Positions 1,125-35,055 of a stretch of DNA of 35,870 bases are shown piece after piece. The position numbers and the translations under genes are program-made. Numbering within the stretch: the stretch's first letter is position 1; each line of letters begins with the position of its first letter. Under the pieces are notes generated by a model. The model searched no databases and was not told the origin of the DNA. It saw only the letters and a program-made list of their open reading frames with translations. The stretch comes from an uncultured Methanobrevibacter sp. (lineage in GTDB: Archaea; Methanobacteriota; Methanobacteria; Methanobacteriales; Methanobacteriaceae): positions 1 through 35,870 of the forward strand of contig OMVX01000009.1 in NCBI GenBank assembly GCA_900314605.1, given 5' to 3'.

Positions 1125-4076
1125 TTGAGTTTTGGTAGTATGGTTAATACTGTTTTGAATCAAGAAAATATAGAGAAAAGCAAAGGGAAGATTGCAGAGT
1201 TAGTAGCTAAATTTGACAGTAATAAAGACATATATTTATCTAGAGATTACAAAGAAGAAGATATAAAGGTTGAATTTATTAGTCCAATGTTTAAAGCATT
1301 AGGATGGGATATAGATAACACTATGGGTAATGCACCTCAATTTAAAGAAGTAATATTTGAAGAATCAATTTCTGTAGGCAATAAAACAAAAAACCCAGAT
1401 TATACCTTTCAGATTGGTGGGCAAAAAATTTTCTTTTTAGAAGCTAAAGCACCTCATAGGGATTTAGACCATGATAGAAATCCTGCTTATCAAGTAAGAA
1501 GATATGGTTGGTCTGCAAAACTTGATTTATGTGTATTAACTGATTTTGAAGAATTTGCTATATATGAAACCAATACAAAACCAAACAAAAGTCAACCTGC
1601 AAGTATAGGTCGAGTAAAATACTATAAATACACAGAATATGTTGATAAATGGGAAGAAATTTATAGTATATTTAGTAAAGAAGCAGTATTAAAAGGTTTA
1701 TTCGATAAATTTGTTGAAGGTACAGAAGGTATCAAAAAGGGAACTTCAAAAGTTGACCACGAATTTTTAAAGGAAATTAACCATTGGAGAGAAATTTTAG
1801 CAAGGAATATCGCATTAAGAAACGAAGATATCTCCATTGATGGTTTAAATTATGCTGTACAATTAACAATAGACAGAATATTATTCTTTAGGATGGCAGA
1901 AGATAGAGGGATTGAGAAATACAAAACTTTATACAACTTGGCTGATGAAGAAAACATTTACCAAAAGCTGATAGATGTCTTCAAAATAGCTGATGCAAAA
2001 TATAATAGTGGATTATTTTGTCTAACTGCAGACCCCAATAAACATCTAAACAGAGACACAGTTACAGAAGATTTAATTATTGATGACAAAGTGTTTAAAG
2101 AGATTTTTAAAAATTTATACTATCCTGAAAGTCCTTACGAATTTAGTGTGATTTCCCCTGAAATATTGGGAACAGTATATGAACAGTTTTTAGGCAGTAG
2201 GATTAGGCTAACTGATGGACATCAGGCTAAGATTGAACAAAAACCTGAAATTAGAAAAGCAGGAGGTGTTTTTTACACACCACAGACAATCGTTAAAGAC
2301 ATTATTGAAAATACAGTAGGTAAATTAATAAAAAATAAATCTCTTAAACAAATAGAGAACATAAAAATCATTGACATCGCATGTGGTTCAGGGAGCTTTA
2401 TTCTTGGTGCTTACAAGTTCTTATTAGACCATTATTTAAATGAATATTCTAAAATGGAAAGACCTCCAGCAAATACTATATATCAAGGAAAAAATGGGCA
2501 ATTGAGATTAACAATATCTGAAAAGAAAAGGATACTTAAAAATAACATTTATGGTGTTGATATTGACTTTTTAGCTGTAGAAGTTTCCAAACTGACATTA
2601 TTATTGCAGGTATTAGAAGACCAAAATAAAGATGTGGTTGAGCAACAGCAAACATTATTCAATGAAAGAGTATTGCCTGACTTAAGTGATAACATCAAGA
2701 ATGGAAATACTGTAATTGAAACAGATTATATCACTCCAGATACTGATTATGATGAAATTAAAAGAATAAAACCATTTAATTATGCTGATGAATTTCCTGA
2801 AGTATTTGAAAACTCTGCCTTTGATGTTATAATTACTAACCCTCCTTATGTTAGGCAAGAGTTGCAATCCAAAGCTGAGAAAGAATATTACAAAACACAT
2901 TATAATGTCTATACTGGGCAAGCTGATTATTATGTTTATTTTTATGAAAAAGCTTTTAATTTATTAAAAGAGGATGGATATTTTGGATTGATTTGTAGTA
3001 ATAAATTTACTAGAGCAAAATATGGAAAAAAATTAAGAAAATATTTATTGGATTATAATTTTATTTCTTATGATGATTATACTGGAAAGAATGTATTTAA
3101 AGATGCCACTGTAGACCCATCGGTCATGGTGTTTAATAAGTCTTTTAATAAAAATAACAAAATTTTAGTGGATAAAGAATTTACCTTAAATCAATCAGAT
3201 TTTGATGATGGAAGTTGGGCATTTTATTCTCCTGAAGTCTTAGCAGTAAGAGATAAAATAATGGATATTGGGATTCAATTAAAGGATTTGGATGAAATTG
3301 AGATATTTAGGGGAATAATGACTGGATACAATAAAGCTTTTGTAATCGACGATAAGACTAGGGAAATGTTAATTTCAAATGATGAATCTAGTATTGAATT
3401 GATAAAGCCTTTTTTAAGAGGTAAAGATTTAAAACCTAATGTTATAAACTTTGCAGATATTTATCTCTTGTATATTAAATGGGATTGTAATATTAAGAAA
3501 TACCCTGCTATAAATGAATATTTAAGTGGTTTTAGAAAGGAATTAGCTAAAAGACCTGAAGTTAAAGAAGGGAGATATAAATGGTATTGTTTAAGTAGAT
3601 ATGGTTCTAATTTTACAGATAATTTTGAAAAACCAAAGTTAATTTATCCCAACATGGCTTCAAGTTTATTCACTGTGTTTGATGACAATAGATATTATAC
3701 TAATCAAAAATGTTATATTGTTACTTCAGATACAGTTGATTTAAGATATATCCACTCTTTAATCTCTTCTAAAGTACTGAATTTTATTTTTAAGTTATTG
3801 GGTAGTCCATTAGGTACTGGTGGCTATGATATTAGTAAGATTTTTGTGGAACAATTACCTATTGTATTTAATGATGAATTAGAAGAACGAATTGTTGAAT
3901 TAACTGACAAATCTATAGAACTTAATAACTCTTTAAACGATGAATCTGTTACACCTAATCAAAAAATAGTTCTTCAGCAACAGCTAAATGTTGTTGATAA
4001 TGAAATTGAGAAATTAATTTATCAATTGTATGACTTGACAGATGATGAAATAGCTATTATCGAGGAGATAATGTAA
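1125..4076 (+). CDS. single-chain type IIG-like restriction enzyme / adenine-N6 DNA methyltransferase
   Basis: This 983-residue protein has the layout of Eco57I-type restriction-modification enzymes, in which one chain cuts and methylates DNA. An N-terminal PD-(D/E)xK-like nuclease is suggested by D92 and by E106-A-K108 in FFLEAKAP, with E50 upstream. The methyltransferase carries SAM-binding motif I at about residue 417 (DIACGSGSF) and the catalytic NPPY at 572-575, which marks amino-group (N6-adenine) methylation. Residues from about 715 on, beginning EIFRGIMTGYNKAF, resemble the TaqI-type specificity domain. The C-terminus is coiled. No separate R, M or S subunit lies nearby, so the enzyme appears self-contained. 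The start is uncertain: TTG 1125 has no spaced ribosome binding site and ATG 1140 has none either, while a purine-rich site precedes ATG 1099, which opens only a 7-codon out-of-frame peptide. Flanking DNA is decayed, consistent with an acquired defence gene. Confidence 0.9.
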   Translation: MSFGSMVNTVLNQENIEKSKGKIAELVAKFDSNKDIYLSRDYKEEDIKVEFISPMFKALGWDIDNTMGNAPQFKEVIFEESISVGNKTKNPDYTFQIGGQKIFFLEAKAPHRDLDHDRNPAYQVRRYGWSAKLDLCVLTDFEEFAIYETNTKPNKSQPASIGRVKYYKYTEYVDKWEEIYSIFSKEAVLKGLFDKFVEGTEGIKKGTSKVDHEFLKEINHWREILARNIALRNEDISIDGLNYAVQLTIDRILFFRMAEDRGIEKYKTLYNLADEENIYQKLIDVFKIADAKYNSGLFCLTADPNKHLNRDTVTEDLIIDDKVFKEIFKNLYYPESPYEFSVISPEILGTVYEQFLGSRIRLTDGHQAKIEQKPEIRKAGGVFYTPQTIVKDIIENTVGKLIKNKSLKQIENIKIIDIACGSGSFILGAYKFLLDHYLNEYSKMERPPANTIYQGKNGQLRLTISEKKRILKNNIYGVDIDFLAVEVSKLTLLLQVLEDQNKDVVEQQQTLFNERVLPDLSDNIKNGNTVIETDYITPDTDYDEIKRIKPFNYADEFPEVFENSAFDVIITNPPYVRQELQSKAEKEYYKTHYNVYTGQADYYVYFYEKAFNLLKEDGYFGLICSNKFTRAKYGKKLRKYLLDYNFISYDDYTGKNVFKDATVDPSVMVFNKSFNKNNKILVDKEFTLNQSDFDDGSWAFYSPEVLAVRDKIMDIGIQLKDLDEIEIFRGIMTGYNKAFVIDDKTREMLISNDESSIELIKPFLRGKDLKPNVINFADIYLLYIKWDCNIKKYPAINEYLSGFRKELAKRPEVKEGRYKWYCLSRYGSNFTDNFEKPKLIYPNMASSLFTVFDDNRYYTNQKCYIVTSDTVDLRYIHSLISSKVLNFIFKLLGSPLGTGGYDISKIFVEQLPIVFNDELEERIVELTDKSIELNNSLNDESVTPNQKIVLQQQLNVVDNEIEKLIYQLYDLTDDEIAIIEEIM

Positions 4077-10883: not shown

Positions 10884-13238
10884 TTATAAATACTGACTTG
10901 CAACAATAGCCTGCCCTAAAGATACAGAACCATCTCCACAACAGGAACCTTCATGTTGTATAAACTTATAACCAGATTTATCAATAATATTTTTACAGGT
11001 TAAGGTAATCTCTTCATTATATAATGTTCCACCAGTAGCACCAATATTTAATAGGTTTTTATCTTCAGCAACTTTAATTGCAATGGAAGAGAGACCTTCT
11101 GCTATAACCCTTTGTGCAGCTGATGCAATTTCTTTAATACTTTCTCCCTTAAACCTTAAGTCAATAACTTCTTTTAAAATATCTGTAGTATTAAACCTAT
11201 ATAATCCATTTATTTTTTCTATATTAAATGGGATATTAATGTTTTTAGATGCACCATAAGCTGCTGATTCAAGTTTCATAGCTGCTTCACCTTCATAAGT
11301 TCGACTTCCACATATTCCCAAAGCAGCAGATACAGAATCAAGTACTCTACCTGTACTTGATGAAAGACCAACATTCAAATTGGAATCTAGCTGTTTTAAA
11401 ATCATATCAATTTCACTTTCACCATATTTAAAGTAATGTGCATAATGTTCTTTCATTAATTTACTAATTTCCATATTATTATATTTTTTACCATAACTGT
11501 CTTCATTTAATAATATTGACATTAACATACGTGAAGGATATTTTGTACATAAATCTCCACCAGGCATTTTTTGAGGAGTTAAAGACCCTAATCTTTCAAA
11601 GTTTTTTACATCAGTATATAATATTTCTCCTCCCCATGCAGTTTTATCACTTCCATAACCTACACCATCAGCTGCAATAAATACTAGTTCATTTAAATCA
11701 TTATCATTTAATAGATTAATCCCATGAGCATGATGATGCTGGACCTGAATTAAATCTACATCATAATATTGACTATACTCCTGTGCAAGCTTTGTTGTAA
11801 AAAACTGAGGATGCATATCACATGCAATCAAATCAAAATTTTTTGTTTTAGTAATCTCCATCATATGTTTAACTGCATCTTTTAAAAATTCATATGTTTT
11901 ATATTTATTAGTATTTCCAATATGTTGTGATAGATAAGCCTTGCTATGATTTAGTATTGTAAATGTAACATCAAGTTCTGGTCCAAGGGCTAAAATATTA
12001 GAATCTTTAATATTTTCATTTAAATCTAATATTGATTTAGAAATACTATATGGTTTAGGAGTATATCCTCTTGAACGGCGAATAAATGAAAGCTTATTAT
12101 TTCTATATTTTACTACAGAATCATCACATCTATTGATTATACGTCTGTTGTGTACAATAGCATAATCATAAATCCCTTCCAATTCATTTAGAATACTTTC
12201 ATTATTAATCATCATAGGCTCTCCTGGAACATTAGCAGAAGTCATAATATATGCAGGATCACCATTGATTTTTTCATTTTCAATAAATAGTAAATGATGT
12301 AGTGGTGCGTATGGTAACATAACTCCTATTGTATGTAACATAGGTGCAACAGAATCAGCAAAGAAGTATTCTTTATTCTTTTTTAAAACAACAATAGGCC
12401 TCTCTTTTGATTTAAGACTTTCCTCTTCAAGTGGACTTATTTTAGCATATGTTTTTACAGTTTCTATATTTGGACTCATTACTGCAAATGCCTGTGCAGG
12501 TCTACTGAGAATTTTTCTTAATCTTTTCACTACCTTTTCATCTGTAACTTTACAGACAAGATGTGTTCCACCTATTCCTTTAAGAGCAATTATATTACTA
12601 TCTTCAAGAAGTTTTGCAGCTTCAGCTAAAACATCTTTAGATTCAATTAGATTTTTATTTTTATCATATAATTTAAGTGAAGGTCCACAATCTTCACAGC
12701 ACATTGCCTCTGCATGATAACGTCTATCTAGGGGATTTTTATATTCTCTCTTGCATTCATCACATAGTGGAAAATCATCCATACTTGTTTTATCTCTGTC
12801 ATAAGGTACAGATTCAATTACTGTAAATCTTGGTCCACAATCACAACAAGCATTAAATGGATATTTATACCTTCGGTTTGTAGAATCTGTAATTTCATCA
12901 AGACATTTATTGCATATTCCAACATCTGGTGGAATAACACTAGTCCCATCATAATTATCTTCACTTTCTAAAATTAGAAACTCATTATAATTTGGAGTGA
13001 GGATATTATTATCCTTTTCTTCGTATGTATCAATCTTAGCTATTGGAGGAAGTGATTTAAATAAAAGGTCTTTAAATTTGGAAACTTCACTTTCATTTCC
13101 TTCTAATATTATTTCTACAATATTTCCAAGGTTTCTAATACTTCCATTTAAATTTAAATCAGTTGCTATTCTGTAAACTGTAGGTCTAAAACCTACTCCT
13201 TGAACAATTCCAGAAACTAAAATATTCCTTTGAATCAT
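10884..13238 (-). CDS. hypF: carbamoyltransferase HypF, [NiFe]-hydrogenase maturation
   Basis: HypF makes the thiocarbamate on HypE that becomes the cyanide ligands of the [NiFe]-hydrogenase iron, using carbamoyl phosphate and ATP. The 784-residue protein shows the family's domain order. An acylphosphatase domain carries VQGVGFRPTVYRIA near 12-25. Two zinc fingers of the form Cx2Cx18Cx2C use C109, C112, C131, C134 and C159, C162, C181, C184. A YrdC-like domain spans about 200-385, and a Kae1-like carbamoyltransferase domain with HHHAHGINLL and DGVGYGSD completes it. I chose ATG 13238 because the acylphosphatase fold begins right after it and a GGGGTT ribosome binding site precedes it; a longer frame from TTG 13274 has no support. 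It lies 166 bases downstream of the PTS operon on the same strand. Hydrogenotrophic methanogens need it for their hydrogenases. Confidence 0.97.
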   Translation of the reverse strand: MIQRNILVSGIVQGVGFRPTVYRIATDLNLNGSIRNLGNIVEIILEGNESEVSKFKDLLFKSLPPIAKIDTYEEKDNNILTPNYNEFLILESEDNYDGTSVIPPDVGICNKCLDEITDSTNRRYKYPFNACCDCGPRFTVIESVPYDRDKTSMDDFPLCDECKREYKNPLDRRYHAEAMCCEDCGPSLKLYDKNKNLIESKDVLAEAAKLLEDSNIIALKGIGGTHLVCKVTDEKVVKRLRKILSRPAQAFAVMSPNIETVKTYAKISPLEEESLKSKERPIVVLKKNKEYFFADSVAPMLHTIGVMLPYAPLHHLLFIENEKINGDPAYIMTSANVPGEPMMINNESILNELEGIYDYAIVHNRRIINRCDDSVVKYRNNKLSFIRRSRGYTPKPYSISKSILDLNENIKDSNILALGPELDVTFTILNHSKAYLSQHIGNTNKYKTYEFLKDAVKHMMEITKTKNFDLIACDMHPQFFTTKLAQEYSQYYDVDLIQVQHHHAHGINLLNDNDLNELVFIAADGVGYGSDKTAWGGEILYTDVKNFERLGSLTPQKMPGGDLCTKYPSRMLMSILLNEDSYGKKYNNMEISKLMKEHYAHYFKYGESEIDMILKQLDSNLNVGLSSSTGRVLDSVSAALGICGSRTYEGEAAMKLESAAYGASKNINIPFNIEKINGLYRFNTTDILKEVIDLRFKGESIKEIASAAQRVIAEGLSSIAIKVAEDKNLLNIGATGGTLYNEEITLTCKNIIDKSGYKFIQHEGSCCGDGSVSLGQAIVASQYL

Positions 13239-13404
13239 TTTAACCCCAATAATATTAATTTTTATTAGATGCAAATTATAAGCTTAGAAATTCTATTGAT
13301 TATGATATATTTTTAATTTTATATTCAATAAAAAAATTAAGTTAATTAAAATATAGTTATAAAGAAAATTTATTTGGATAAAAATTTTCTACAAATATAG
13401 TTAA

Positions 13405-15003
13405 TTAAATCTCTCTTATTTTAGTAACCATATTTAAAATTCTATTCGGTGAAACTGATAGCTTATCAACACCCATATCTAATAAAACTTCGGTTAAACT
13501 TTCATCACTAGCTAATTCTCCACAGATAGAACATGAAATGCCGTTTTTATGTGCATTTTCTACACAAATTTTAATTTGCTTTAATATAGAATTGTGTCGT
13601 GTATCCAATTCTAATACAACATTATGATTTTCTCTATCACATGCTAAGGTATATTGTGTTAAATCATTTGTTCCTATACTGAAAAAATCAACTAAGGGGG
13701 CAAGTTCATCACTAATTAAAGAAGCAGCAGGTGTTTCTATCATTATCCCTTGTGGAGGAATTTCGTAAGCCTTTCCTTCTTTTTCTAATTCTTTCGCTAC
13801 TATATCTATTTGTTTATAGATAAATTTTACTTCTTTAACTGAAATAATCATAGGGTACATTATCCGTAAATTACCATGGCAACTAGCTCTTAATAATGCT
13901 TTTAATTGGGTTTTAAATAAATCCATGTAATCGAGGTAGACACGGACTCCTCTTTTTCCAAGAGCAGGATTATTTTCTTCTTTATAATCTACATACTCTA
14001 TTGGTTTATCAGATCCAATATCAATAGTACGGATTGTTACTTCTTTACCATTTAATTTTTCAAGCACAGACTTATATATTTGATATTGTTGTTCTTCTGT
14101 GGGAGGAGTTATTTTATCCATAAAAAAGAATTCAGTTCTAAATAAACCAACTCCTTGGCAGTTATTTTCAATACTTTCTTCTAAATCTGCAGAGGAAGAA
14201 ATGTTTGCGAGTACTTGAATTTCACGCCCATCGGTGGTTTGTGTTTTTAAACCTTTATTCTTTTTTAATTCTAATTTAAAATTCTCTAATTCTATTTGTT
14301 TAATTTTCATTTCTTCAATCGTTTCTTCATCAGGATTAATAATTAATTCATTTTGACTAATTATAATTGTATCTCCATTTTTTACTAAATCCATTATGTT
14401 TTCAATTCCACAAACGGTCGGTATTTGATTTTTTCTAGCCAGAATAGATGCATGAGATAAAGAAAATCCTTTTGATGAAACAAATCCTAAAACATCATTT
14501 TTTTCAAAGGCAAGAATATCATTACATGTTAATAAATCCGTTATGATAATTGAAGGTTCTTTTGGCATTACTTGCTTTTGATTTACTATATTAGATTTCA
14601 TTTGTGAAGAGATTTCATAAATGTCATTAGCTCGTTGAGAAAGATATCCATCATCCATATTTTTAAAAATTGTTACAAATTCATCACATACAATATTGAC
14701 AGCTTCATATGCACTTATCTTTGTTTTACAAATTTTTGATTTTATTGCATCAATGAAAGTGGGATCTTCAGCCATTAGTATATGTGTTTGGACAATCTCT
14801 GCTTCAAGGTCCTTTGAATCTTTTAGCATTGAGTCATACAAATGTTTTAATTTTGATTGTGTTATATTAACTGCTTTATCAAGGGTTTTTAATTCTTTCT
14901 CAATTCCTTGAAATTTATGTATAGGTTTATCAGTTTTATTTAATTTAAATGCAGGTCCAATAACAATTCCTTTTTCAATAATTTCAACATTATATTTTTT
15001 CAT
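13405..15003 (-). CDS. ptsI: PTS Enzyme I (phosphoenolpyruvate-protein phosphotransferase)
   Basis: Enzyme I takes phosphate from PEP onto a histidine and passes it to HPr, the first step of phosphotransferase sugar uptake. The 532-residue protein is slightly shorter than typical bacterial EI (about 570) but has all the key parts. The HPr-binding and phosphohistidine domains include H184 in SLSHASILARKNQIPTV. The PEP-binding barrel has GVGLFRTEFFFMD, DFFSIGTNDLTQYTLA and the catalytic Cys C494 in SICGELA. I chose ATG 15003, where the family homology begins (MKKYNVEIIEKG). The frame is open further upstream only because it overlaps ptsH. A GGAGG site lies inside the end of ptsH and only one base separates the ptsH stop from this ATG, so translation is probably coupled. 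It closest resembles Firmicute EI, so transfer from gut bacteria is likely. Confidence 0.95.
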   Translation of the reverse strand: MKKYNVEIIEKGIVIGPAFKLNKTDKPIHKFQGIEKELKTLDKAVNITQSKLKHLYDSMLKDSKDLEAEIVQTHILMAEDPTFIDAIKSKICKTKISAYEAVNIVCDEFVTIFKNMDDGYLSQRANDIYEISSQMKSNIVNQKQVMPKEPSIIITDLLTCNDILAFEKNDVLGFVSSKGFSLSHASILARKNQIPTVCGIENIMDLVKNGDTIIISQNELIINPDEETIEEMKIKQIELENFKLELKKNKGLKTQTTDGREIQVLANISSSADLEESIENNCQGVGLFRTEFFFMDKITPPTEEQQYQIYKSVLEKLNGKEVTIRTIDIGSDKPIEYVDYKEENNPALGKRGVRVYLDYMDLFKTQLKALLRASCHGNLRIMYPMIISVKEVKFIYKQIDIVAKELEKEGKAYEIPPQGIMIETPAASLISDELAPLVDFFSIGTNDLTQYTLACDRENHNVVLELDTRHNSILKQIKICVENAHKNGISCSICGELASDESLTEVLLDMGVDKLSVSPNRILNMVTKIREI

Positions 15004-15004
15004 T

Positions 15005-15259
15005 TTAAAAATTTTCCTCCATAAATTTTTTAAGATATTCAATTGCATTGGCTTCATCTGGGCCTGTAGCTTCAATAATAATAGTATCTCCTTGTTTAAC
15101 TTGTAGCATCATTATGTTCATTATACTTGAAGCATCAATTGTTTTTCCATTTAAGCTTATAGTTACTTTACTTTCAAAATTTTTAATTTCTTGTACAAGG
15201 ATTCCGGCAGGCCTTGCATGAATTCCTAATTCATTTGTTATGGTATAATTAAAATTCAT
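15005..15259 (-). CDS. ptsH: PTS phosphocarrier protein HPr
   Basis: HPr relays phosphate from Enzyme I to the sugar-specific EIIA domain. The 84-residue protein is normal length. The phosphorylated histidine is H14 in LGIHARPAG, the family signature. S45 in DASSIMNIM aligns with Ser46 of Bacillus HPr, the target of HPr kinase in Firmicutes. The start at 15259 is set by an AAGTGAT ribosome binding site that overlaps the stop codon of the upstream EIICBA gene; a longer frame to 15298 only overlaps that gene. Its position between EIICBA and ptsI with essentially no spacing shows one operon. No HPr kinase or CcpA-like gene is in the window, so the Ser45 control may be only a relic of the bacterial ancestor. 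Confidence 0.96.
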   Translation of the reverse strand: MNFNYTITNELGIHARPAGILVQEIKNFESKVTISLNGKTIDASSIMNIMMLQVKQGDTIIIEATGPDEANAIEYLKKFMEENF

Positions 15260-15263
15260 AAAA

Positions 15264-17339
15264 TCACTTTTTCTCAATTCTAAATAGTTCATTTTCATAT
15301 TTTATAGATGTTGATTCGGTTATATTGGTAATTTTTTCATTATCTTTTAACTCAGTACATACAATTGGGGAAATAGTAGACAAACCTTGGTTTTTAATAA
15401 AATCTATATCCATTTCAAGTATAGTTGTACCTTTACTTACATGTTCGCCTTCATTTGTTAGAAGTTTAAATCCTTTTCCATCTAGGGATACGGTATCAAT
15501 TCCTAAATGAACTAATATTGAAATACCATTGTCACATTCAAAAGCAAATGCATGTTTTGTAGGGGCTATGAAAGTTATGGTTCCATCTGTTGGAGCTTTA
15601 ACTTCATTATTATTTGGCTTTATAGCTATTCCTTCTCCCATAACTCCTGAAGCAAAGGTATCATCAGGAACTTCATTTAATGGAATAACTTCTCCTGATA
15701 AAGGACTTTCTATATCAATGGTATTTTTGGATAAACTAGATTCTTCTAAGGTATTTATTCCTTTAATATATTGGTCTAATTTAGCTTGGATAATATTTGC
15801 TTTTGTTCCATAAACTAATTGCACACCGGTTCCCTTTCTTTGAATGTAAATAACCTTGGTTTTATTAAGAATATCCTCGTTTATTAAGTCGGGATTTTTA
15901 ACTGTACATCTTAATCTTGTAGCACAACAATTTTGGTCTTCTATATTATCAATACCTCCTAATCCTTCAACTATTAACTTGGATCTATCATCTTTAGAAA
16001 TAGAAATACTTTCACTATTATCAATTTGAGTTGGGAATTTAACATTAAATTTAGTTATTGTAATTGTAAATGCTAAATAATAAATAATTGCAATTGCAAT
16101 TCCAATAGGTATAATAACTATCCATCCAGTTCTATCATTACCTGGAAGTATACCTAAAAAGATTAAATCCAATAGTCCTGAAGAAAATGTACATCCTACT
16201 GCAAAATTAAGTGCAACTTGCAATGCATTACACAAACCACACATTATTGCATGGAAAATGAAAAGTATTGGTACAACAGGTATAATTTGGAATTCAATTG
16301 GTTCTGTTATTCCAACTAATGCACTTGTAAGAGCTGCGGATTGCATAGCTGATTTTGTAGATTTTTTGAATTTTTTCGCAGTATGTCTGTAAATTGCATA
16401 TGCTCCAGCAGGTAAACCAAATATCATAGGTGCAAATTCTCCACCAAAATATTGGGTTACAGAAGGGGATATGTGACGAATACTTGAATCTGCAAGTTGT
16501 GCAAAGTAAATATTTTGAGCACCAACATAAGTTACTCCATTTATAACTTGTGTACCTCCAAGGGAAGTTTGCCAAAATGGTAAATAAAATACATGATGCA
16601 AACCAAAGGGAATAAGTAGCCTTTTAATGGTTGAAAATAAGAATGCACCAATTATTCCTAAATTTGAAATATAAGATGCTAAAAACACGATTCCAGATTG
16701 AATACCTGGCCAAATAATGTAGAAGATTCCACCTAAAATCATACTAGCAAAAATACTTACAATAGGTATGAAATTTGAACCTTCAAAGAATGAAAACATT
16801 GATGGCAATTCAATTTCATTAAATTTATTATTTAATAGTGCAACAACGAATCCTACTATAATTCCTCCGAAAACACCAACTTGTAATGTCGGTATTCCTA
16901 ATATAGTAGCAATCATCCCTTCTTTTGCACCTGGAAGTAATTCGCCAGTACTATTAATAACTTTTCCAAAAATTAATAAATAATTCAATGTTTCATGCAT
17001 AATTAAAAAAGATATTATTGCGGAAAGGGCTCCAATTTCTTTTTTCTTATTAGAAAATCCAATAGCAATACTTATTGCAAAAAATAAAGCTAAATTATCA
17101 ATTACAGTTTGACCAATAACTTTCATTAGTGTTAAAATTTGAAATAAGATAGTTCCTTCATGTATTAATGAACTGAGTCCTAATTGCCCAATTATTATTT
17201 CTTGAGTAAATGTTGCTCCTATTGCTAATAAAAATCCTGCAATGGGCATAAGGGTAATGGGCAGCATTATACTTTGACTTAAACGTTGTACAAAGGAAAA
17301 TACCCTTTCTTTATTAATAGAATTTTTTTCCTTATTCAT
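15264..17339 (-). CDS. PTS sugar transporter EIICBA, glucose/glucosamine family
   Basis: This membrane permease imports a hexose or amino sugar and phosphorylates it. The 691 residues run C-B-A. EIIC (about 1-445) is strongly hydrophobic with about ten membrane segments and PtsG-like motifs: LLIPFGLHHVFYLPFW, FGLPAGAYAIY and GITEPIEFQ. EIIB has the phospho-cysteine C472 in CCATRLRC. EIIA (about 545-691) has H596 and H611 (ILVHLGIDTV), spaced 15 apart like the two active-site histidines of E. coli EIIA-Glc. No phospho-relay residue is missing, so the protein should work. An AGGTA ribosome binding site precedes the ATG. It is the first gene of the operon with ptsH and ptsI. The substrate cannot be told between glucose, glucosamine and N-acetylglucosamine. 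A methanogen with this system is unexpected, and transfer from a gut Firmicute is the likely source. Confidence 0.95.
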   Translation of the reverse strand: MNKEKNSINKERVFSFVQRLSQSIMLPITLMPIAGFLLAIGATFTQEIIIGQLGLSSLIHEGTILFQILTLMKVIGQTVIDNLALFFAISIAIGFSNKKKEIGALSAIISFLIMHETLNYLLIFGKVINSTGELLPGAKEGMIATILGIPTLQVGVFGGIIVGFVVALLNNKFNEIELPSMFSFFEGSNFIPIVSIFASMILGGIFYIIWPGIQSGIVFLASYISNLGIIGAFLFSTIKRLLIPFGLHHVFYLPFWQTSLGGTQVINGVTYVGAQNIYFAQLADSSIRHISPSVTQYFGGEFAPMIFGLPAGAYAIYRHTAKKFKKSTKSAMQSAALTSALVGITEPIEFQIIPVVPILFIFHAIMCGLCNALQVALNFAVGCTFSSGLLDLIFLGILPGNDRTGWIVIIPIGIAIAIIYYLAFTITITKFNVKFPTQIDNSESISISKDDRSKLIVEGLGGIDNIEDQNCCATRLRCTVKNPDLINEDILNKTKVIYIQRKGTGVQLVYGTKANIIQAKLDQYIKGINTLEESSLSKNTIDIESPLSGEVIPLNEVPDDTFASGVMGEGIAIKPNNNEVKAPTDGTITFIAPTKHAFAFECDNGISILVHLGIDTVSLDGKGFKLLTNEGEHVSKGTTILEMDIDFIKNQGLSTISPIVCTELKDNEKITNITESTSIKYENELFRIEKK

Positions 17340-17977
17340 TTTTTTTACCTACACATTAAAATTTTATATTATTCTTATAATATTTATTATATTTTTTATT
17401 AATATAACTATTTTTATAGGTTTTATGGGCACTTTTAAAAATATTAACTGTGTTTTCGAAAAGTTATTTTTCTTCATTAAAAACTTTAATTTTAAGTTAA
17501 ACTTTTTCAAATTCATTATATTTTTAAAAAATATATTTTTATCATTATCTATTAAAATATTTATTTTATATGCTAAATTATTTTTAAAAAACATCATGAA
17601 GTTATATTCAGATAAAAATTTCTACCATTTTTCTTATAGTAAATTAAGAATTATTAGTTGTTTGAAACTATTAGTTTTTTTTATCTTCTTTTCTATGGAT
17701 TTTTGAATATTGTCTAATCAAATAACAAAGTTTAAAATGTTTATCAGATATAATATTATTTGAAGCTTTTATATTTTGATTTTCTATATTAATATATTAG
17801 TTTCATATTACAATGATTACTATTTTTAAATTATAAATAAAGAAAAATAAATAATAAATAAATAATATGTATCAGAATATTTTTAAAAATTAAAATCACT
17901 TAAGTTTTCTAAGAGCCTAAATTAAATTAAAGTAGTATTTATTTTTATTTAAAATACTTATTATTAAGGGTGTTTTT
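17340..17977. other. 638-base AT-rich divergent intergenic region between the PTS operon and larB
   Basis: Both flanking genes read away from this region, so it must hold two promoters. Open frames here encode almost only Phe, Ile, Lys, Asn and Leu and have no ribosome binding sites, so I read no gene. No long inverted repeat or catabolite-response-like element was seen. Confidence 0.6.
17410..17422 (-). promoter_or_regulatory. candidate TATA box of the PTS operon
   Basis: Reading the minus strand, ACCTATAAAAATA lies about 75 bases upstream of the EIICBA start and matches the archaeal TATA consensus, with AAAA bases just upstream that fit a B-recognition element. It would start transcription near 17389 and leave a leader of about 50 bases. 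Having an archaeal promoter means the operon can be expressed by its host. Confidence 0.45.
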
Positions 17978-18769
17978 ATGAAAAATACTTTAAATAATCT
18001 CGTTAATGGAAAAATTACAGTTGAAGAATGTGAAAAAAGAATTAAAGCAGATAATGTTCTAGAGATTAGCGGTATTGCTAAATTAGATGTTAATCGTAAA
18101 TCAAGAACTGGTTTTCCTGAAGCGATTCTTGCAGATACTAAAGATTATGATGATTTAGTTGAAATATTAAAAACTTATTATAAAGAACTTAATATTAAAG
18201 ATAATTTACTAATTACTCGTCTTAGTAATGAGTCCTATCTAAAACTTGTTGATGATATATCTTTTTTAAAGGATAAATACAATTTAATTTATAATAAAAA
18301 AGCAAGAATATTAATTATTTCAAATAAAAATTATACAAACGAACGAAAGAAATTTAACTATAAAGTTGGTATTATTACTGCTGGTACTTCTGATATATTT
18401 GTTGCAGAGGAAGCAAAAGTTATATTGGAAGAAACGGGTGTAGAAGTTTTAAGTTCATATGATGTTGGAATTGCAGGTATTCATAGATTATTTCCTCAAA
18501 TAGCACATATGATTAAAGAAGATGTTAAAATTTTAATTATATGTGCAGGTATGGAAGGAGCATTACCATCTGTAATAGCAGGATTAGTTGATATTCCAAT
18601 TATAGCAGTTCCTACTTCAATCGGTTATGGTGTAGGTGAAGGAGGTAAAACAGCTTTAAATTCTATGTTACAGTCTTGTGCACCAGGTATATCAGTTGTA
18701 AATATTGATAATGGTTTCGGTGCTGCAGTATATGCTATTACAATCTTGAAAACATTTTGCCTAAAATAG
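17978..18769 (+). CDS. larB: LarB, nickel-pincer cofactor synthesis (pyridinium-3,5-biscarboxylate mononucleotide synthase)
   Basis: LarB carboxylates and hydrolyses nicotinic acid adenine dinucleotide, the first step in making the nickel-pincer nucleotide cofactor of lactate racemase and related enzymes. The 263-residue protein has the N-terminal LarB signature SRTGFPEAI at 42-50 and a PurE-like domain from about 129 ([16 protein letters not shown]) to the end. C234 in QSCAPGI sits in the conserved cysteine region of the family. An AAGGGTG ribosome binding site precedes the ATG. No larC, larE or larA is in the window. Many archaea carry LarB homologues without an obvious lactate racemase, so the target enzyme is unknown. 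The plus-strand gene is divergent from the PTS operon and is followed by a broken transporter gene. Confidence 0.9.
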
Positions 18770-18999: not shown

Positions 19000-19630
19000 A
19001 TGGTTAAAAACCTTACAAAGATTGATATATATTCTATTAACTGGAGTTTTCACTGCTAATTTGATTATTGATATTGTTATTGCAAGTAAAACATTTGAAT
19101 TTTTTATATTTATATTTCCTTGCTCTATTATTATATTCCCTATTTTTTATATTTTAGATGATATTTTATCTGAAATTTATGGTTATAAAAAAACAAGACG
19201 TGTTATTTTTCTAGGATTTTTCATGAATCTCATAGCTATAGTTTGTTTTACTATAACTATTAATATGCCATCTCCACAATTTTTTGAACATCATAAAGCA
19301 TATGCTATAGTTTTAGGAAGTTCAACAGAATCATTGCCGCTAATTTCATTTCCTATTTAGTTGGTCATTAGTTAATGCTAAAGTTATGGTGTTTTTAAAA
19401 GATAAATATGATGGAAAAAAACTTTTCTTCAGGTGTATTTTTTCTACTATTGTTGGAGGGGGCTTAGATGCAATAATTTTTATTTTCATTGCATTTTATG
19501 GAACAATTCCGTTGTATGTATTATTAATAATGCTTATTGGGAAATATTATTTAAACCTATTTATGAGACTTTAACATACCCTATTACAAAATATATAATT
19601 AATTATATTAAATCTCTACCAGATTATTAA
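19000..19630 (+). pseudogene. frameshifted queuosine-precursor transporter (VUT/YhhQ family)
   Basis: Joined across frames, this reads as a complete member of the VUT (YhhQ) membrane family of about 210 residues, which imports 7-deazaguanine precursors of queuosine or archaeosine. The pieces are MVKNLTKIDIY from ATG 19000, then ILLTGVFTANLIIDIVIASK onward (with DDILSEIYGYKKTRR), then ANFISYLVGH, then NAKVMVFLKDKYDGKKLFFR, and finally ILFKPIYETLTYPITKYI to TAA at 19630. The joins fall near 19030, 19335, 19370 and 19540, so four single-base indels break it. Large neighbouring genes are intact, which argues against poor sequence quality. A TATA-like stretch (18966-18979) about 25 bases before the ATG and no ribosome binding site suggest the ancestral gene was leaderless. 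Confidence 0.8.
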
Positions 19631-19906: not shown

Positions 19907-22177
19907 TTATTCTAAAATTTTAAGTGTATCAGCCATATTTAATTTTCTGATTTTATATGCAAAGTATAGGTTAATACTAAACAATACTGTTAATATTATG
20001 ATAAATGTACATGAAAGATTCATTATAGATATGTTTGGCAGTATAAAGAATTTCTCACTTGATGATTTCCATATTATATTTAAAACATAGTAACCTAAAG
20101 GAATTCCTAATAAACTTCCAAGTATTATAAAAATAATACTTTGGGTTAATAATATTTTTGATAATGCAAATGTTTTAAAACCTAAAACCTTAAGTGTTCC
20201 AATATCTTGTTCCATTTCTACAAAACTTAGTAAATATAAATTATAAAGAACAATTAATGCTAAAACAATTGCAAAAAACATTAATGCATAAACTTCCATC
20301 CATAATGGTTTGTAAAGTTCTCGCCAACTATCAATCATATCCTGACGGTCAATTATTGATTTAACACCCTCATAATCTCCTGTAACATTCTTGGCACTTA
20401 TAATACTTGTAATATAATGATCTAAACCTAGTTCATTAAATTTATTCTTAGACATGATTAATCCTTGAGAAGTTGGGTTTCCATGAATTTTATCAATTTT
20501 TACATTAATCCATTTATTAGTATTATGAACACGAAAACTAACAGTTTCTCCAGCTTGAATACCCAATAAATCAGCAATTTTTTGTGAAACTGAAACTTCA
20601 TTATCTTTTATTTCTATTTTATTCTGATATTTATCTGTCGGGGTGATTAAATCTGTATCATTAACTACAAGTAATGAAGCATATTTTTTAGTATGATCTG
20701 ATTCCATTTCAGTAACTAACTCTATTATTTCAACCCCATTTACTTGTCTTGACACATCATGAATTTGGGTTTCACTAACATTATTATTTAAAATTAATTT
20801 TGACTCATAATGATTAATTTTATTAAATTGCCAATTTTCTGCATCGTTTAATCCATCATATAATCCAAATGCAGAAATTAAAAGTACAGCACAACACATA
20901 ACTCCAAAAATAGTTGTAATTGCTCTAAAACGATTTCTTTTAATATCTCTATAATTCCAACGGAAATTAAAAGATAATTTTTCCCATATTTTAAATTTTT
21001 CAATAAAAGTAGAAGTGGATGCTTTCGGTACCTTAGGTCTTATTATTGTTGAGGGATGTTCACTAACAATACTTTTAATAGAATAATATGAAACTATCAG
21101 TGCCAATAGAAACATTATTACAACTATATAAGCAAAATTCATAAAACCTGATGGCATTAAATAAGGTAATTTAAATATATTTGTCAATGGTTTGTAAGCG
21201 ATTAGGTTTATAAAAAATGGCCCTGAAATTAAACCAATTATAGATCCTGCTAATATTAATAAAGACCCATGTGACAAGTAATGTATAATTATCGAATGAT
21301 TTTTAAATCCATTAGCTTTTAAAATCCCAATTTGAGTTCTTTGATGTGTAATAATCCTTTTCATCGTAGTTACAAGCATTAATAATGAGATGAAAATAAA
21401 GACAGTTGGAAGAATAGTTGATATCATTTGAAATAGATTTATTATGTGATTAAATTGACTTACACTAGAATGCTCTTCTCTTGGTAAAAATGAATCATAG
21501 CTATCTTTTAAATTATCTGCTAATAAATTAGAATAATCTTCAGCATTTCCATTAAATTTTACATTTAAAACATTATATGGAATGTTATCATCTGGAAATG
21601 CTTTATAAGACATGTAAGCAAAACCATATTCTGAATAGTTTAGTTTTGGCATGTAATATGGTAAATCATAAACATATTCTGGCGAATAACCTAATCCTCG
21701 GATTTCTTTTTCAATTTCTATTCCATTAAACTTGAATCCAATTTTATCTCCTACTTTAAGATTTCGAGCATCTGCAAAACTCTTATCAAGCCATACTCCA
21801 TTTTCATCATCTAAATTTATTTTTTCACCTTCAATTAAATAAAACTTAGATATGGTATTGTTTTCTATAAAATGGAGTTTAATATCTGGTTCAGTAGGTA
21901 ATTTAGCATCGGAAGTAATTACAAACTGACGTTCAATCGCTGTTGTAGGCTTTAAATTATTTACATGTTCAACTAAAGCATTATCTGCATTTGTTGAAAA
22001 AATCCATCCATCGGCTAAATTAGTATCAGAATAATAATTATTAATATTTGATTCTAGAGTTATTGCTTCTTCACCAATACCTGCAAATATAAATACTCCA
22101 ACAAATGCCATTAAAAAAACAGAAATGAATTGAATTTTATAATTAGAGAGATCTCTTAACATCTTTTTGTATAACAT
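19907..22177 (-). CDS. ABC transporter permease, double FtsX/MacB type
   Basis: This 756-residue integral membrane protein contains two FtsX-type permease halves in one chain. There is a membrane helix at about 15-37, a large extracellular domain, three helices around 250-375, a fifth helix near 415, a second extracellular domain, and three helices from about 630 to 745. Such proteins pair with a LolD/MacB-type ATPase and usually extrude lipids, peptides or antibiotics, or relay mechanical signals, rather than import nutrients. The partner ATPase gene ends 38 bases upstream. An AGGGG-containing site precedes the ATG. Following the NRPS gene on the same strand, it is a candidate exporter or self-resistance pump for the NRPS product; that link rests on position only. 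Confidence 0.9.
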   Translation of the reverse strand: MLYKKMLRDLSNYKIQFISVFLMAFVGVFIFAGIGEEAITLESNINNYYSDTNLADGWIFSTNADNALVEHVNNLKPTTAIERQFVITSDAKLPTEPDIKLHFIENNTISKFYLIEGEKINLDDENGVWLDKSFADARNLKVGDKIGFKFNGIEIEKEIRGLGYSPEYVYDLPYYMPKLNYSEYGFAYMSYKAFPDDNIPYNVLNVKFNGNAEDYSNLLADNLKDSYDSFLPREEHSSVSQFNHIINLFQMISTILPTVFIFISLLMLVTTMKRIITHQRTQIGILKANGFKNHSIIIHYLSHGSLLILAGSIIGLISGPFFINLIAYKPLTNIFKLPYLMPSGFMNFAYIVVIMFLLALIVSYYSIKSIVSEHPSTIIRPKVPKASTSTFIEKFKIWEKLSFNFRWNYRDIKRNRFRAITTIFGVMCCAVLLISAFGLYDGLNDAENWQFNKINHYESKLILNNNVSETQIHDVSRQVNGVEIIELVTEMESDHTKKYASLLVVNDTDLITPTDKYQNKIEIKDNEVSVSQKIADLLGIQAGETVSFRVHNTNKWINVKIDKIHGNPTSQGLIMSKNKFNELGLDHYITSIISAKNVTGDYEGVKSIIDRQDMIDSWRELYKPLWMEVYALMFFAIVLALIVLYNLYLLSFVEMEQDIGTLKVLGFKTFALSKILLTQSIIFIILGSLLGIPLGYYVLNIIWKSSSEKFFILPNISIMNLSCTFIIILTVLFSINLYFAYKIRKLNMADTLKILE

Positions 22178-22215
22178 TAATTCACAACCCCTATAAGATT
22201 TAAAACCACTTCAAA

Positions 22216-22920
22216 TCACCATTCCAAGTCGGTGACTTTTTTTGGAGTTTCATTAAGAACAATACTTTCAACCTGACCATTTTTTATTCTAATAACCTTG
22301 TCGGCAACTTCTGTTAATAATTCATTGTGTGTAACAATAATTACTGTGGTGTTTTTATAATTGCTTAAATCTTGAAGAAGTTTTAAAATTGAAACTCCAG
22401 TATTTGAGTCAAGAGCTCCTGTTGGTTCATCACATAAAAGTATTGAGGGTTTTTTAGCGATAGCCCTCGCAATAGAGATTCTTTGTTGTTGCCCACCAGA
22501 TAACTGCGCTGGAAATTGATTTGCATAATCTTTAAGGCCTACAGAATCTAATATTTTCAAACCATCAATTTTAAAATCTACAACATCTTCCATAAGTTGT
22601 ATATTTTCTAAAGCTGTTAAATTAGGTATTAAATTATAAAACTGGAAAATAAAGCCAACATTTTTAGCTCTATATGTGGTAAGTTCATTGTCATTGAAGG
22701 ACTCTATATGATTACCATCAACAATAATCTCACCAGAACTTACAGAATCAAGGCCTCCTAAAAGATTTAAAAGGGTTGATTTACCTGCACCTGATGGGCC
22801 TAGAATAACAACAAATTCACCATGTTCTATTGTGAAATTTACATTGTTCATAGCTTTCAATACATGGTTTCCAGATTTATATTCCTTTACAACATTTTTA
22901 AATTCAACTATATTATACAT
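22216..22920 (-). CDS. ABC transporter ATP-binding protein (LolD/MacB family)
   Basis: This cytoplasmic ATPase powers the FtsX-type permease encoded next to it. The 234 residues contain all nucleotide-binding motifs: Walker A GPSGAGKST (41-49), Q-loop Q93 in FQFYNLIP, signature LSGGQQQ (140-146), Walker B ILLCDEP (160-166), a D-loop (GALD) and H-loop H198. Length and motifs are standard for the family and nothing is missing. It starts 129 bases after the end of the NRPS gene, and its partner follows after 38 bases, so the pair is one transcription unit and may be co-transcribed with the NRPS. A purine-rich AGAAGGG site precedes the ATG. Confidence 0.95.
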   Translation of the reverse strand: MYNIVEFKNVVKEYKSGNHVLKAMNNVNFTIEHGEFVVILGPSGAGKSTLLNLLGGLDSVSSGEIIVDGNHIESFNDNELTTYRAKNVGFIFQFYNLIPNLTALENIQLMEDVVDFKIDGLKILDSVGLKDYANQFPAQLSGGQQQRISIARAIAKKPSILLCDEPTGALDSNTGVSILKLLQDLSNYKNTTVIIVTHNELLTEVADKVIRIKNGQVESIVLNETPKKVTDLEW

Positions 22921-23049
22921 AATGGCCCTTCTTTTAGAAAATTTTATAAGAAATTAATTATTTATTTAGTTTAACACTTTATATAATTTATATTTTTTCT
23001 TTCTATTCAAAAAATTATTCTTTTTAATTTCAAAAATAATATTTTGAGT

Positions 23050-26000
23050 TTATATTTCATTTATTAAATTCTCCAATTTTGAAGACATATCTCCATTAAT
23101 AATATTGGATAAAATCAATTCGAAGGTATTTTTAAATTTCTGAATCATTTCATTTGAATAGTTATTTGAATTAACTATCATCATACTATAATTTTCTCCT
23201 TTTTGGAAAACTTGAACAATGAAATTTGCCATCAAATCATTTTGTTTTTCTAAAATTTCATCAAGGATATCATCTACCAGATTTGTGGACAACATTTCAT
23301 CATTATAATTAATTCCATCATAAGAAACCCAATCAGGCACATATTGGAATATTACATCAGTAGTCAAAGGGTATTTTTGATAAAGTAATAAAAGGGGATA
23401 AAAATCATATTTTGTCACACCAAAAATATTTTTGGACGAATCTTTTATAAATGATTCAATATTTTGATTTTTACAATTAATTATTAGTGGTTTGACATTT
23501 GCATATAATCCTATAGAATCCATATCATCAAATCTACCTCTTCCACTACCTATTAATAAAAATAACACTTTATCTCCTTTATTAAATCTAGACAATGTAT
23601 AAGAAAAAGCACTTGTGAATAATACATTTTTACTTATATTGTTATCATCTATAAATCTTTTTAATTTCTCATGATTTATTTCCAAATCATATGTGTCCAT
23701 GGTAAATCCTTTTGATTGTTTATCACCAACAAAAGATTTTACTTCTTCAATATCACAAAGCATAGAATCAAAGAAATCTTCAGCATCACTAAACTTTTCA
23801 GTATTTTTTACTTGATGGTTGAAGGCAGACATTTTTAAAAATCCCTCATCAACATCAACTTTACCTCCATTAAGGAAAATTTCCATACTCTGTTTAAATA
23901 CATTTGAGGATATGGCATCAAAAATAAGGTGATGAAACTTAGCAAGTAATATATATGAGTCTTCTAAATCAAAAATCTTGAACATAGATAAATAATTATA
24001 TAAATCTAAATTTTCATTGATGAAATCGTTTACTATTTCTTTATTAAAATTTGATTCGATAGTAATCGGTGGTTTAGAACCTGTTACTAAATAGGGATAC
24101 TCTCCTTTAAACAACTTCAAGATGGTACTAATCATATCATAAATTCTTTTAATGTTCCAATTTTTTTCACGAAGCAAATCAAGAAGGGACATATTTTCAG
24201 AATTATTTGAATTTCCTAATTCTTTTAATAAATTTAAATTTTCCTTAATTCGAGCTATTAGATTTTTTTTCTCTTTTGATTCATAACGTTTACTTAAATG
24301 TGTTTTTATAATCGGATGGGCATTTATTGTTTTATCTAATGCTGTAAGTATTTCTTCTAATTTATAAGTTTTAGGAATTTGTATATATGTTGGAATTTGA
24401 TAAAAATCAAAGTTATCATTTACTATAATATCTGAAAATAAACTTGCTTGCGCTTCATTTAAAGGACAACCTTCCTCTATAGAATAAATATCTAAATCAA
24501 AAGGAATATCATTAATATTTTTTGCAATTTTTCTAGGGGTACGTAAATTTAAAATATCTGCTGCAGTAATGTTATAATTTTTAAGATAAGACAATAATTT
24601 AAGAGCAGTTAGAGAATCTCCTCCTAAATTAAGAAAATCATCATAAACACTGATTTTTTCTTCATTGAATATTTTTTCAAATGCATTAACAATCTCTCTT
24701 TCTTTTTCATTGGTCGGAGCAACATATTCTACCTGTAAACTGCTTCTATCAACTTCAGGTAAACTTTGTTTATCGACTTTACCATTTACTGTTAGAGGAA
24801 TATTTTCTAAAATCATTATAAATGAGGGTACCATATAATCTGGCTTATAGGAAGAAACATAATCACAAATCTTTTTTTGAATTGAATCGGTTATAGTTTT
24901 ATTATCTACAACAACATAGGCAACTAATTCATTATTTCCTCTTTCATTAATTGTTTGAACAGTAACATCTTTAATGAAATCCATGTTTCGTATTATTGAT
25001 TCTACTTCAGAAAGTTCAACACGATTTCCTCGTATTTTAACCTGTCCATCACGACGACCTACCATTCCAATTGTTCCATCAGGTAAAACTCTTACTAAAT
25101 CTCCTGTATAATACATTAGACCATAATTTTCATTATCATCAAATGGGTTTTTAACAAAAACTTTTTCTGTTTCCATCTGGCGATTTAAATAGCCATGGGC
25201 AACTTGTTTTCCTACAATACATAATTCTCCTATAGCACCTATTGGCACTCGCCGACATTCATTATCTAAGATATAAGCTTTAATATTGGTAAATAGATGG
25301 CCAATTGAGCTAGAATCAATCTTATTATTTACATCTATAGCACAAACTGCAACACAACATTCAGTTGGTCCATAGGAATCATGGAATGTATATTCAACAG
25401 TTGTGTTGACTAGACCTAATTTTTCTCCACCTGTAATTAAAACCTTTAGTGAAGTTTCATCAATCTCTTCAATAAATGCTCTGACTACTTGGGTAGGGAG
25501 TGTTGTATGGGTAACATTTTTTTCAATAAAATGTTTATTTAACTTATGCATATTTAGTCTAATGTCTTTCGGGATAATATCTAAACATGCTCCTGCATAT
25601 ATTGGAGAACACATACCTCTAATTGCACTTACGTCAAAGCCAATTGAAGAAAACAATGAATAGGTTGAGGTACTCTTCAATTTATATTCGTTGAGGTAAA
25701 AATCAACATAGTTCGTAATTCCTTCTCTAGTAATTTTAACCCCTTTAGGAACACCAGTTGTACCACTAGTATATAAAATACAAGCTAAATCACCATAAAC
25801 ATAAGGTAATGTTGATAGGCTATCAATATTACTTTTAATGATATTTGAAATGTTTAAAAGCTTAATGTTTTCATCAATATTTTTAATAATATTTTCTCCA
25901 CGATTATATGTTTCATCACTAACAATAACAACAGGTGAGGCACAATCTTTTATCATGAATTTAATCCGTTCATCTGGTAAATCATCATCCAATGGAACAT

Positions 26001-29000
26001 AAACACCACCAACAGATAAAATACCTAATACACAAAAAATATAAAGTTCTGAACGTTCTACGAAAAAGGAAACAGAATCCTGTAAATTAATACCTAATTT
26101 TACCAATTCTTTAGCTAATATATCAGCAATATATCCTCCTTCTCCATATGAATAAGATATATCATTATAGGATACAAGTTTATTACGAGGATATTTTCTT
26201 AGATTCTCATTAAAAGCTTCTAATATATCTGTGAACTTTAAATCTTTTTCAGTTTGATTATATTTGTCTAATATTTTTAAATCTGAATCTGTTGTATAAT
26301 TTATTTCTGATAATTTTTTTACATTCATCATTTCTTTTATAATTAATTTGTATGTTCTTGTAAAATTTTCAACAAATTCTTTGGAGTATTTTTCTGAATA
26401 TAGTATTCTGATTCCATATTCATTATTTTCTCTATTAAAAATAAAAAAGGAAAAGTCTTCTATAATATCATGTTTTAAATCAATAACCTCATATGATGAA
26501 TTTTCATTGTTTATTAGACTGTTGAAGAGGTCATGAGAATATTGGAATATGATATTTGATTTTATTTCATATTCCTTAGCTAAGATATGGAAGGGGTATA
26601 AATCATATTTTATTGCTGTTTTAATTAAGTTACTTGTATAATCTAAAAAACTAGATATGTTCTGGTTATTACAATCAATTAAAAGTGGAAGTGTTTGTGC
26701 AAACATTCCTATTGATTTAGATAAATCAAAATGCCCTCTACCATTATCTATTATATTGAATAAGATTTTTGAAGACCATGCAAATCTTGATAATGTATAA
26801 GCAAATGCGCTGCAGAAGAATTGGTTTGCTGTAATAGAATGTTGGGATAAAAATGATTTTAATTCATTGTTATTGATGCTGATATTATCATTATATTCAT
26901 ATTCTTCATTTTTGCATGTTTTAACTGAATCTAATAATTCATATACTTCATCTCTATCAGTTAACATAGAATCAAAGAATTCATGGGCTTTTAACATATA
27001 TTCTTCATTAAGGTTTTCTTCATAGGAAATTTGTCTTAATATGCCGTCATCGAGTAAATCTAAATCATGATCTTCCAATATTGAGCTTATGCAATTTAAT
27101 ATTATATTTATTGAACTTCCATCAAAGATTAGATGGTGTATATCAAAACATAAATAATTAGATTTTTCTTCTTCTACTATTAAAAATTTAGATAAATTTT
27201 TATCTAATTTAAATGGTTGTACAAAATTTTTAATGTCCTTTTGTGTTCCATAATGGATTTGAGGTTTACTATCAAAACTAAATAATACCTCACCTTTCTC
27301 TTTTATTACACGAGCTAATAAAATTGGATAAATATCATATAATTTATTTATTGTTTTTTCTATTTTATTTTTTGAATATTTTTTATTGAATTTTATTATA
27401 AATGGGTTATTATAGCCTGTATTTGTATTATTTACAATTTCGTCTAGGTAAACATTTAATTGTGATTGGGATAATGGATATTTATCTTTAAATGTATAAT
27501 TTGTACTGTTTTTTAAGTGAATGTCTTTATTAAATTTTATATAGTCTGTAATATTAAGTGGTGTTTTTAGTTCTATAATTTTTATAGAGTCTAAGTGTAC
27601 TTCTAATTTTTCTTTTAAATATATTTGGAGTTTCATTGCTGATAATGAGTTTCCACCTAATTTTATAAAATCATCTTTTAAGAAAATATTCTTCTGATTT
27701 AAAACTTCTTTAAATCCATTTACCACTACTTTTAATACATTATCGTCAATTTCAATATTTTCTTCTTCTCCATTTTCGATAATTTTATTTAATCTTATTT
27801 TATCAAGTTTACCATTTGCTGTTAACGGAATTTTGTCTAATTTAATAAAAATTGATGGAATCATATATGGAGGTAATTCAAGTTTTAAAGCCTCTTTTAC
27901 ATTGTCAATATTCAAATGATTTGTGGTTGTATAGTATGCTATAAGGTTATCATGGTCACTATCTAAATAAACATTGTTGATTTCTTTAAAATTTTTCATA
28001 ATTTTTAGTATTTCGTTGGATTCTATACGAAATCCTCTAACTGATAATTGGTCGTCTTCTCGGGATATATATTCTATCATCCCATCGAAATTATAAAAGC
28101 CTATATCTCCTGTTCGATACATTCTTTTATTTTCGCTACAGGTAGAATTGATATTTTCTACAAAGCTTTTATTTGTTAAGTCAGGTCTATTATAATAACC
28201 AGGACTTAAATATTCGCTTGCAATGCATATTTCTCCTGGAACTCCTATTGGCATAGGCATACTATTTTCATCTAGAATATATGCCCAAGTATTAGCCACT
28301 GCTTTACCAAGTGGAAAACTTTTATTATTTTTACTTATATTATAATTATTTACTATGGCCATTATTAGTTCTGTTGTACCGTAAAAATTAACTAATTGTG
28401 TATTGCTTTTTTTATTTGTTAATTCATTTAATTCTGCACCTGCTAAAATCATATGTTTTAATTTTAAATCTTCATTTTCAAATATGGGAATACCTACTGC
28501 TGGAGGTAAGATTATATCTCCTATTTCTTTTTCTTTAAGAGTTTTAATCAATAATAGACTGTCTTTTTGTTCATGTTCATTTAATATTCGTATGGTTTCA
28601 CCAAAAATAAATGAAACAAACATTCGAATAGATGCAATAAAACTAAAACTAGCATAATAGGCCATAACATCCTTAGCAGATATTTCAAAAAGGTCTTTAA
28701 AAGCTGTGGCCATACCATTAATCTGTTTGTTAGAAACCATAACTCCTTTTGGGATACCGGTAGTTCCAGATGTGAATATTATGGCAAATAAATCTTCTAC
28801 ACTCCCCTTATATTTCACATTCTTGTTATAATCTTTATTTAGATCTTCAATATATAAAATCTCTTTACCTAAATCTTTTAAATTATATTCTTTGGTTGTT
28901 ATAATGTAGGTTGATTCACTTATGTTTATCATATGTTCGATACGTTTTAAAGGGTATTCAGGGTCGATTGGTGTGAATATGGCTCCAATTTTGTTTAATG

Positions 29001-34637: not shown

Positions 34638-34710
<73 letters not shown>

Positions 34711-34714
34711 CTTT

Positions 34715-34788: not shown

Positions 34789-34820
34789 TTACAAAATTTT
34801 AATTATGTTCTTTTTTCCAT

Positions 34821-35024: not shown

Positions 35025-35055
35025 TAATCTACTTAAAATACTCTTATTTTCATTT

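Follow-up and report, generated by a model that had tools for sequence, protein, structure and literature searches.

A glucose-family phosphotransferase operon, most probably acquired from a clostridia-type bacterium, lies between hypF and larB in a Methanobrevibacter genome

Results

Architecture of the PTS operon

The stretch of DNA analysed here (the window; 35,870 nucleotides) comprises positions 1 to 35,870 of contig OMVX01000009.1 of assembly GCA_900314605.1, from an uncultured Methanobrevibacter sp., and carries three genes of a phosphoenolpyruvate (PEP)-dependent sugar phosphotransferase system (PTS). It is contig C32 of a 2.37-Mb genome that comprises 103 contigs and is 99% complete, with 3.8% estimated contamination. 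The genes and their catalytic residues are as follows.

15264-17339, minus strand: EIICBA, glucose-family PTS permease, 691 amino acids (Pfam and NCBIfam matches)
Within EIICBA, in amino acids: EIIC 13-430, EIIB about 450-530, EIIA about 541-691
16302-16304, minus strand: EIICBA E346, glutamate of the GITEP motif
15924-15926, minus strand: EIIB catalytic C472
15507-15509, minus strand: EIIA catalytic H611 (H596 is the second EIIA histidine)
15005-15259, minus strand: HPr phosphocarrier, 84 amino acids (PF00381, 102 bits; TIGR01003, above cut-off)
15218-15220, minus strand: HPr H14
13405-15003, minus strand: Enzyme I (EI, PEP--protein phosphotransferase), 532 amino acids with a short C-terminus (TIGR01417)
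14452-14454, minus strand: EI H184
13522-13524, minus strand: EI C494

The three genes follow one another head to tail, with 4 bases between EIICBA and HPr and 1 base between HPr and EI, and all three frames are open at full length; recomputing the coordinates thus bore out the operon described in an earlier reading of the letters made without database searches (the sequence-only reading). The domain scores are far beyond chance: EIICBA gave full-length Pfam matches to PTS_EIIC (209 bits), PTS_EIIB (46 bits), and PTS_EIIA_1 (161 bits), while EI scored 467 bits with TIGR01417, against a curated cut-off of 342, with all three EI domains found. The operon therefore holds a complete phosphorelay set (EI, HPr, EIIA, EIIB, and EIIC) with its catalytic His/His/His/Cys, and the relay residues proposed earlier (EI H184 and C494, HPr H14, EIIB C472, and EIIA H611) all proved right on recomputing. 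The same reading had called the HPr Ser46-type, and the aligned residue, S45, is indeed a serine.

Shine-Dalgarno-like motifs precede HPr (GTGAT) and EI (GGAGG). An archaeal-type promoter, claimed earlier for the first gene, did not withstand a shuffling test, in which 834 of 1000 shuffles of the region matched the consensus of the TFB recognition element and TATA box equally well; the region is so A+T-rich that such a match is indistinguishable from chance. No GlcT/LicT antiterminator adjoins the operon, and a LicT seed found no match in the 82% of the genome (1.93 of 2.37 Mb) covered by our tblastn seed searches.

Insertion between two conserved archaeal genes

The operon occupies the space between two genes that are neighbours in related genomes, in the following arrangement.

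10884-13238, minus strand: hypF, left archaeal flank, start probably at 13238 (TIGR00143, 901 bits), 88% identical in the sister species (G007)
13239-17977: extra segment between hypF and larB, bounded by the ends of these neighbours, the spacers being too A+T-rich to align for finer ends
17978-18769, plus strand: larB, right archaeal flank (NF033503, 257 bits), 83% identical in G007 and 69% in G008

The PTS operon is a clean insertion between these archaeal genes, because hypF and larB adjoin without it in the sister species (G007), in another species of the same genus (G008), and in two other genera (G032 and G009), as read in four loci (L013, L014, L016, and L017). In these relatives, hypF-larB is followed by mazG-CBS-gatB and, where the sequence piece extends far enough, by a radical-SAM gene, with grpE-dnaK beyond hypF where the piece covers them. 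A search for target-site repeats or a transposase at the segment ends gave nothing convincing, the repeats found being A+T-rich, chance-like pairs. The composition of the PTS genes is that of the host, with a G+C content of 0.28-0.30 and a codon usage at the 17th-28th percentile of the genome's own genes, so that the cluster combines conserved host genes on both sides with host-like composition. Conserved synteny confirms both flanks as archaeal, in support of the sequence-only reading.

Among 152 genomes of the phylum, HPr (PF00381) was found in this one and in none of its 151 relatives, in a search that, of 14 control genomes, picked out Haloferax volcanii and six bacteria. Likewise, EIICBA was present in one of 139 genomes of the family Methanobacteriaceae, the comparison set being 138 others (three congeners and 135 further family members); the PTS was thus absent from all relatives searched.

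In a draft genome of 103 contigs with 3.8% estimated contamination, an operon with bacterial sequence that only one of 152 genomes contains could be suspected to be a PTS fragment from a bacterium, joined to archaeal DNA by assembly error or contamination. We nevertheless consider such a chimera very unlikely, because it would take two false joins within one hypF-larB spacer that together restore the conserved order on both sides; moreover, G+C content and codon usage are host-like, and no close bacterial source is known. Synteny on both sides thus speaks against the chimeric join that the sequence-only reading had named as one possible refutation. The other named there was an ancestral and widespread operon, against which the distribution (1/152 and 1/139) speaks. 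If the operon were instead old within the genus or family and had disappeared from the remaining species, its long branch (described below) would be accounted for, and its strong divergence from every bacterium sampled and its host-like codon usage would both fit. However, the three congeners and the 135 other family genomes lack the operon, and in sister and outgroup genera alike hypF and larB adjoin with no PTS in between, so that this history demands numerous independent losses. We therefore regard an older gain as improbable; one gain in the lineage of this species is the simplest history.

Affinity to clostridial PTS operons

All three window proteins scored best against a clostridial/Lachnospiraceae/Erysipelotrichia group. 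Among the matches listed, the nearest EIICBA proteins (40-47% identity) come from Lachnospiraceae, Erysipelotrichia, and other Clostridia. Against the clostridial/Lachnospiraceae type, EIICBA scored 618 bits and EI 437 bits, compared with 461 and 427 bits (EIICBA) and 358 and 337 bits (EI) against Bacillus/Priestia. In the EIICBA and EI trees, Bacillales form a separate, supported clade, and the window copy groups with the clostridial sequences on a long branch. By sequence, all three are members of the glucose-family PTS of clostridial/erysipelotrichial type, with Lachnospiraceae systems nearer than Bacillus PtsG.

The clostridial operons of Lachnospiraceae (L024, L026, and L034) and of Clostridia/Ruminococcus (L062, L064, L065, and L082) share with the window the same three proteins, domain order, gene order, and short EI C-terminus, at identities of 38-45% (EIICBA), 43-55% (HPr), and 39-43% (EI); other comparisons with clostridial EI gave 40-44%. 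Their order is either EIICBA, a further gene, HPr, and EI (L024, L026, L029, and L034) or EIICBA-HPr-EI directly (L062, L064, L065, L079, and L082); the extra gene in L024 and L034 reads as a PRD/LicT-like antiterminator, which the window lacks, and the divergence of the window copy is far greater than that of the clostridial operons. The Bacillus/Priestia ptsGHI operons (L018 and L023) have the gene order ptsG-ptsH-ptsI and the domain architecture in common with the window, but differ in their lower scores, separate clade, longer EI, and upstream GlcT. The earlier description of the EIIC as Bacillus-PtsG-like is therefore wrong beyond gene order.

Among archaea, the known PTS with EI and HPr is the fructose PTS of Haloarcula marismortui pNG700, likewise judged to be of bacterial origin (PMC2405797). 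In haloarchaeal systems, which belong to the fructose family, IIC, IIA, and IIB are separate, whereas the window encodes a fused glucose-family EIICBA; identity to Haloarcula is 35% for EI and 34% for HPr, and the window HPr falls far below the haloarchaeal HPr model (61 bits; cut-off, 140). A haloarchaeal origin of EI was also considered, and a window-Haloarcula EI clade was rejected (p-AU 0.0015).

A clostridia-type gut bacterium is the most probable source of the operon. A sample of roughly 1,180 Firmicute genomes yielded no sequence above about 47% identity, and viral contigs contained no relative. Transfer from a gut Firmicute, as first proposed, thus agrees with the Firmicute sequence and gene order; as no close donor was found, the term points to a clade rather than to an identified donor. 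The long branch may reflect either an unsampled donor lineage or fast change after transfer.

Predicted structure and candidate substrate

EIICBA carries the PF02378, PF00367, and PF00358 domains, the GITEP motif, and the elevator EIIC fold of the Glc superfamily. In an AlphaFold2 model (mean pLDDT, 86), EIIC folds like Escherichia coli PtsG (8qsr) and Bacillus cereus MalT (5iws), EIIA matches 1f3g (TM, 0.94), and EIIB matches 1o2f (TM, 0.93). The GITEP glutamate and the sugar-contact histidines and arginine are common to the window, PtsG, and MalT, at identities of about 30% (PtsG) and 26% (MalT). Five of the residues that contact glucose in E. coli PtsG (PMC11930441) are kept in the window copy (PtsG R203, H211, H212, T297, and E298 correspond to R240, H248, H249, T345, and E346), as is the gate residue F337 (F385). 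PtsG E202 is replaced by K239, a lysine also present in 10 of 32 bacterial relatives, and K257 is replaced by M305, a methionine present in all 32, Bacillus/Priestia-type PtsG included.

The glucose-specific model TIGR02002 gave 382 bits, below its cut-off of 591.8, and five clostridial/erysipelotrichial relatives also missed this cut-off (514-552 bits); the substrate is therefore not assignable by family. Fold and contact residues support a glucose-type sugar, although amino sugars or maltose may also fit, and glucose is our best guess from sequence and model. A functional PTS for another sugar, for example of the N-acetylglucosamine, N-acetylmannosamine, or maltose class, is possible but less probable. 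The N-acetylglucosamine model TIGR01998 (312 bits) and malX (290 bits) stay below their cut-offs, just as the glucose model does; EIICB is 42% identical to an Enterococcus faecium system adjoining an N-acetylmannosamine-6-phosphate epimerase; and amino-sugar phosphates would suit pseudomurein synthesis. However, the glucose model scores best, and NagA and NagB seeds found no match in the searched 82% of the genome.

Predicted fate of the sugar phosphate

Genome-wide searches covered two phosphofructokinase families, PF00365 and PF04587, and found neither. A phosphoglucose isomerase of the PF00342 family was present neither in this genome nor in 20 Methanobacteriales relatives searched for this family; the controls for both enzymes behaved as expected. 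Methanocaldococcus jannaschii has a PF00342-type isomerase, absent from this genome (G000) and the 20 relatives, and these Methanobacteriales presumably use another isomerase type. Seeds for Zwf, glucokinase, and pyruvate kinase, like those for NagA and NagB, had no match in the part of the genome searched, while PEP synthase and GalU are present.

Because neither phosphofructokinase family nor a PF00342 isomerase was found, canonical glycolysis of the product is doubtful. Use in biosynthesis rather than standard glycolysis appears more likely, because NagA and NagB are also among the enzymes not found. A sugar import route is thus plausible, with a downstream pathway missing by the searches made.

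Other features of the window

Beyond larB, a block at 19907-30324, also extra relative to the sister species, lies between larB and mazG and encodes a nonribosomal peptide synthetase of 2424 amino acids (three condensation, two adenylation, and two carrier domains) with an ABC/FtsX exporter pair. A Vut_1/YhhQ-type transporter gene (19022-19590) is broken after about 112 codons, with related sequence downstream in another frame, and is probably a pseudogene. A type IIG-like single-chain restriction-modification enzyme (Eco57I/N6_Mtase, TaqI_C, and HSDR_N; 1125-4076), with codon usage at the 7th percentile, is likely another acquired gene. Five clustered tRNA genes (Asn, Met, Glu, Leu, and His; 34638-35131) account for a G+C peak and a spurious open reading frame at 34914-35150.

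Discussion

We propose that a complete clostridial/erysipelotrichial-type glucose-family PTS operon was acquired by one Methanobacteriaceae species, inserted between hypF and larB, and serves PEP-driven import (probability, roughly 0.7). On this proposal, phosphate would pass from PEP through EI-H184, HPr-H14, EIIA-H611, and EIIB-C472 to the sugar, which EIIC would carry inward, glucose being the best guess, to yield a sugar 6-phosphate; this may then enter sugar nucleotides, polysaccharide, and pseudomurein precursors. The genes with their open frames and catalytic residues, their position, their lack in related genomes, their bacterial affinity, and their host-like codon usage are observed; expression, transport activity, substrate, and metabolic fate are predicted from them. 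Most likely, the operon is an acquired and selectively kept, PEP-driven, glucose-type importer that would feed biosynthesis.

Several observations weigh against this proposal. Among positions at which all other aligned sequences agree, EIICBA departs at 19 of 123 and EI at 11 of 91, counts that no other sequence in the alignments approaches, and the EIIC-EIIB linker TPGR reads FPTQ in the window copy; these changes at invariant positions could mean relaxed or altered function. EIICBA also misses every NCBIfam substrate-specific cut-off, as do the clostridial relatives tested, no close donor turned up among the genomes sampled, and the seed searches extended over 82% of the genome. Decay or loss of transport in a genuine insertion, under relaxed selection after transfer, would explain the excess of changes and the lost linker motif, and would agree with the missing antiterminator of related operons and with the lack of any recognised dedicated sugar catabolism. 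Such decay seems unlikely, though less so than an old operon, given that all three frames are open, that ribosome-binding motifs stand before HPr and EI, and that every relay residue and six of eight sugar-contact or gate positions are kept.

In 2008, the PTS was held to be bacterial, with a few haloarchaea besides (PMC2405797), and in Methanobrevibacter smithii a lone PTS IIA-like protein, not a complete PTS, has been predicted (PMC10939349). The open-licence papers searched yielded no earlier report of a complete PTS in a hydrogenotrophic methanogen lineage. The machinery itself is an ordinary glucose-family PTS; the new point is its possession by such a lineage.

To our knowledge, hydrogenotrophic methanogens are regarded as organisms that make no use of sugars. 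More tentatively, the operon may be the first complete PTS in any methanogen and may work as an anabolic importer, spending gluconeogenic PEP on the uptake of glucose or an amino sugar. If so, the imported sugar phosphate would serve cell-wall or polysaccharide synthesis in the absence of a recognisable phosphofructokinase and phosphoglucose isomerase, and the changes at bacterially invariant positions would represent visible adaptation. An intact PTS fixed in a gut-type methanogen would amount to interdomain transfer of a whole multi-protein phosphorelay. It would also provide a natural experiment on the adaptation of such a bacterial system to two new conditions, the membrane of an archaeon and a metabolism lacking standard glycolysis.

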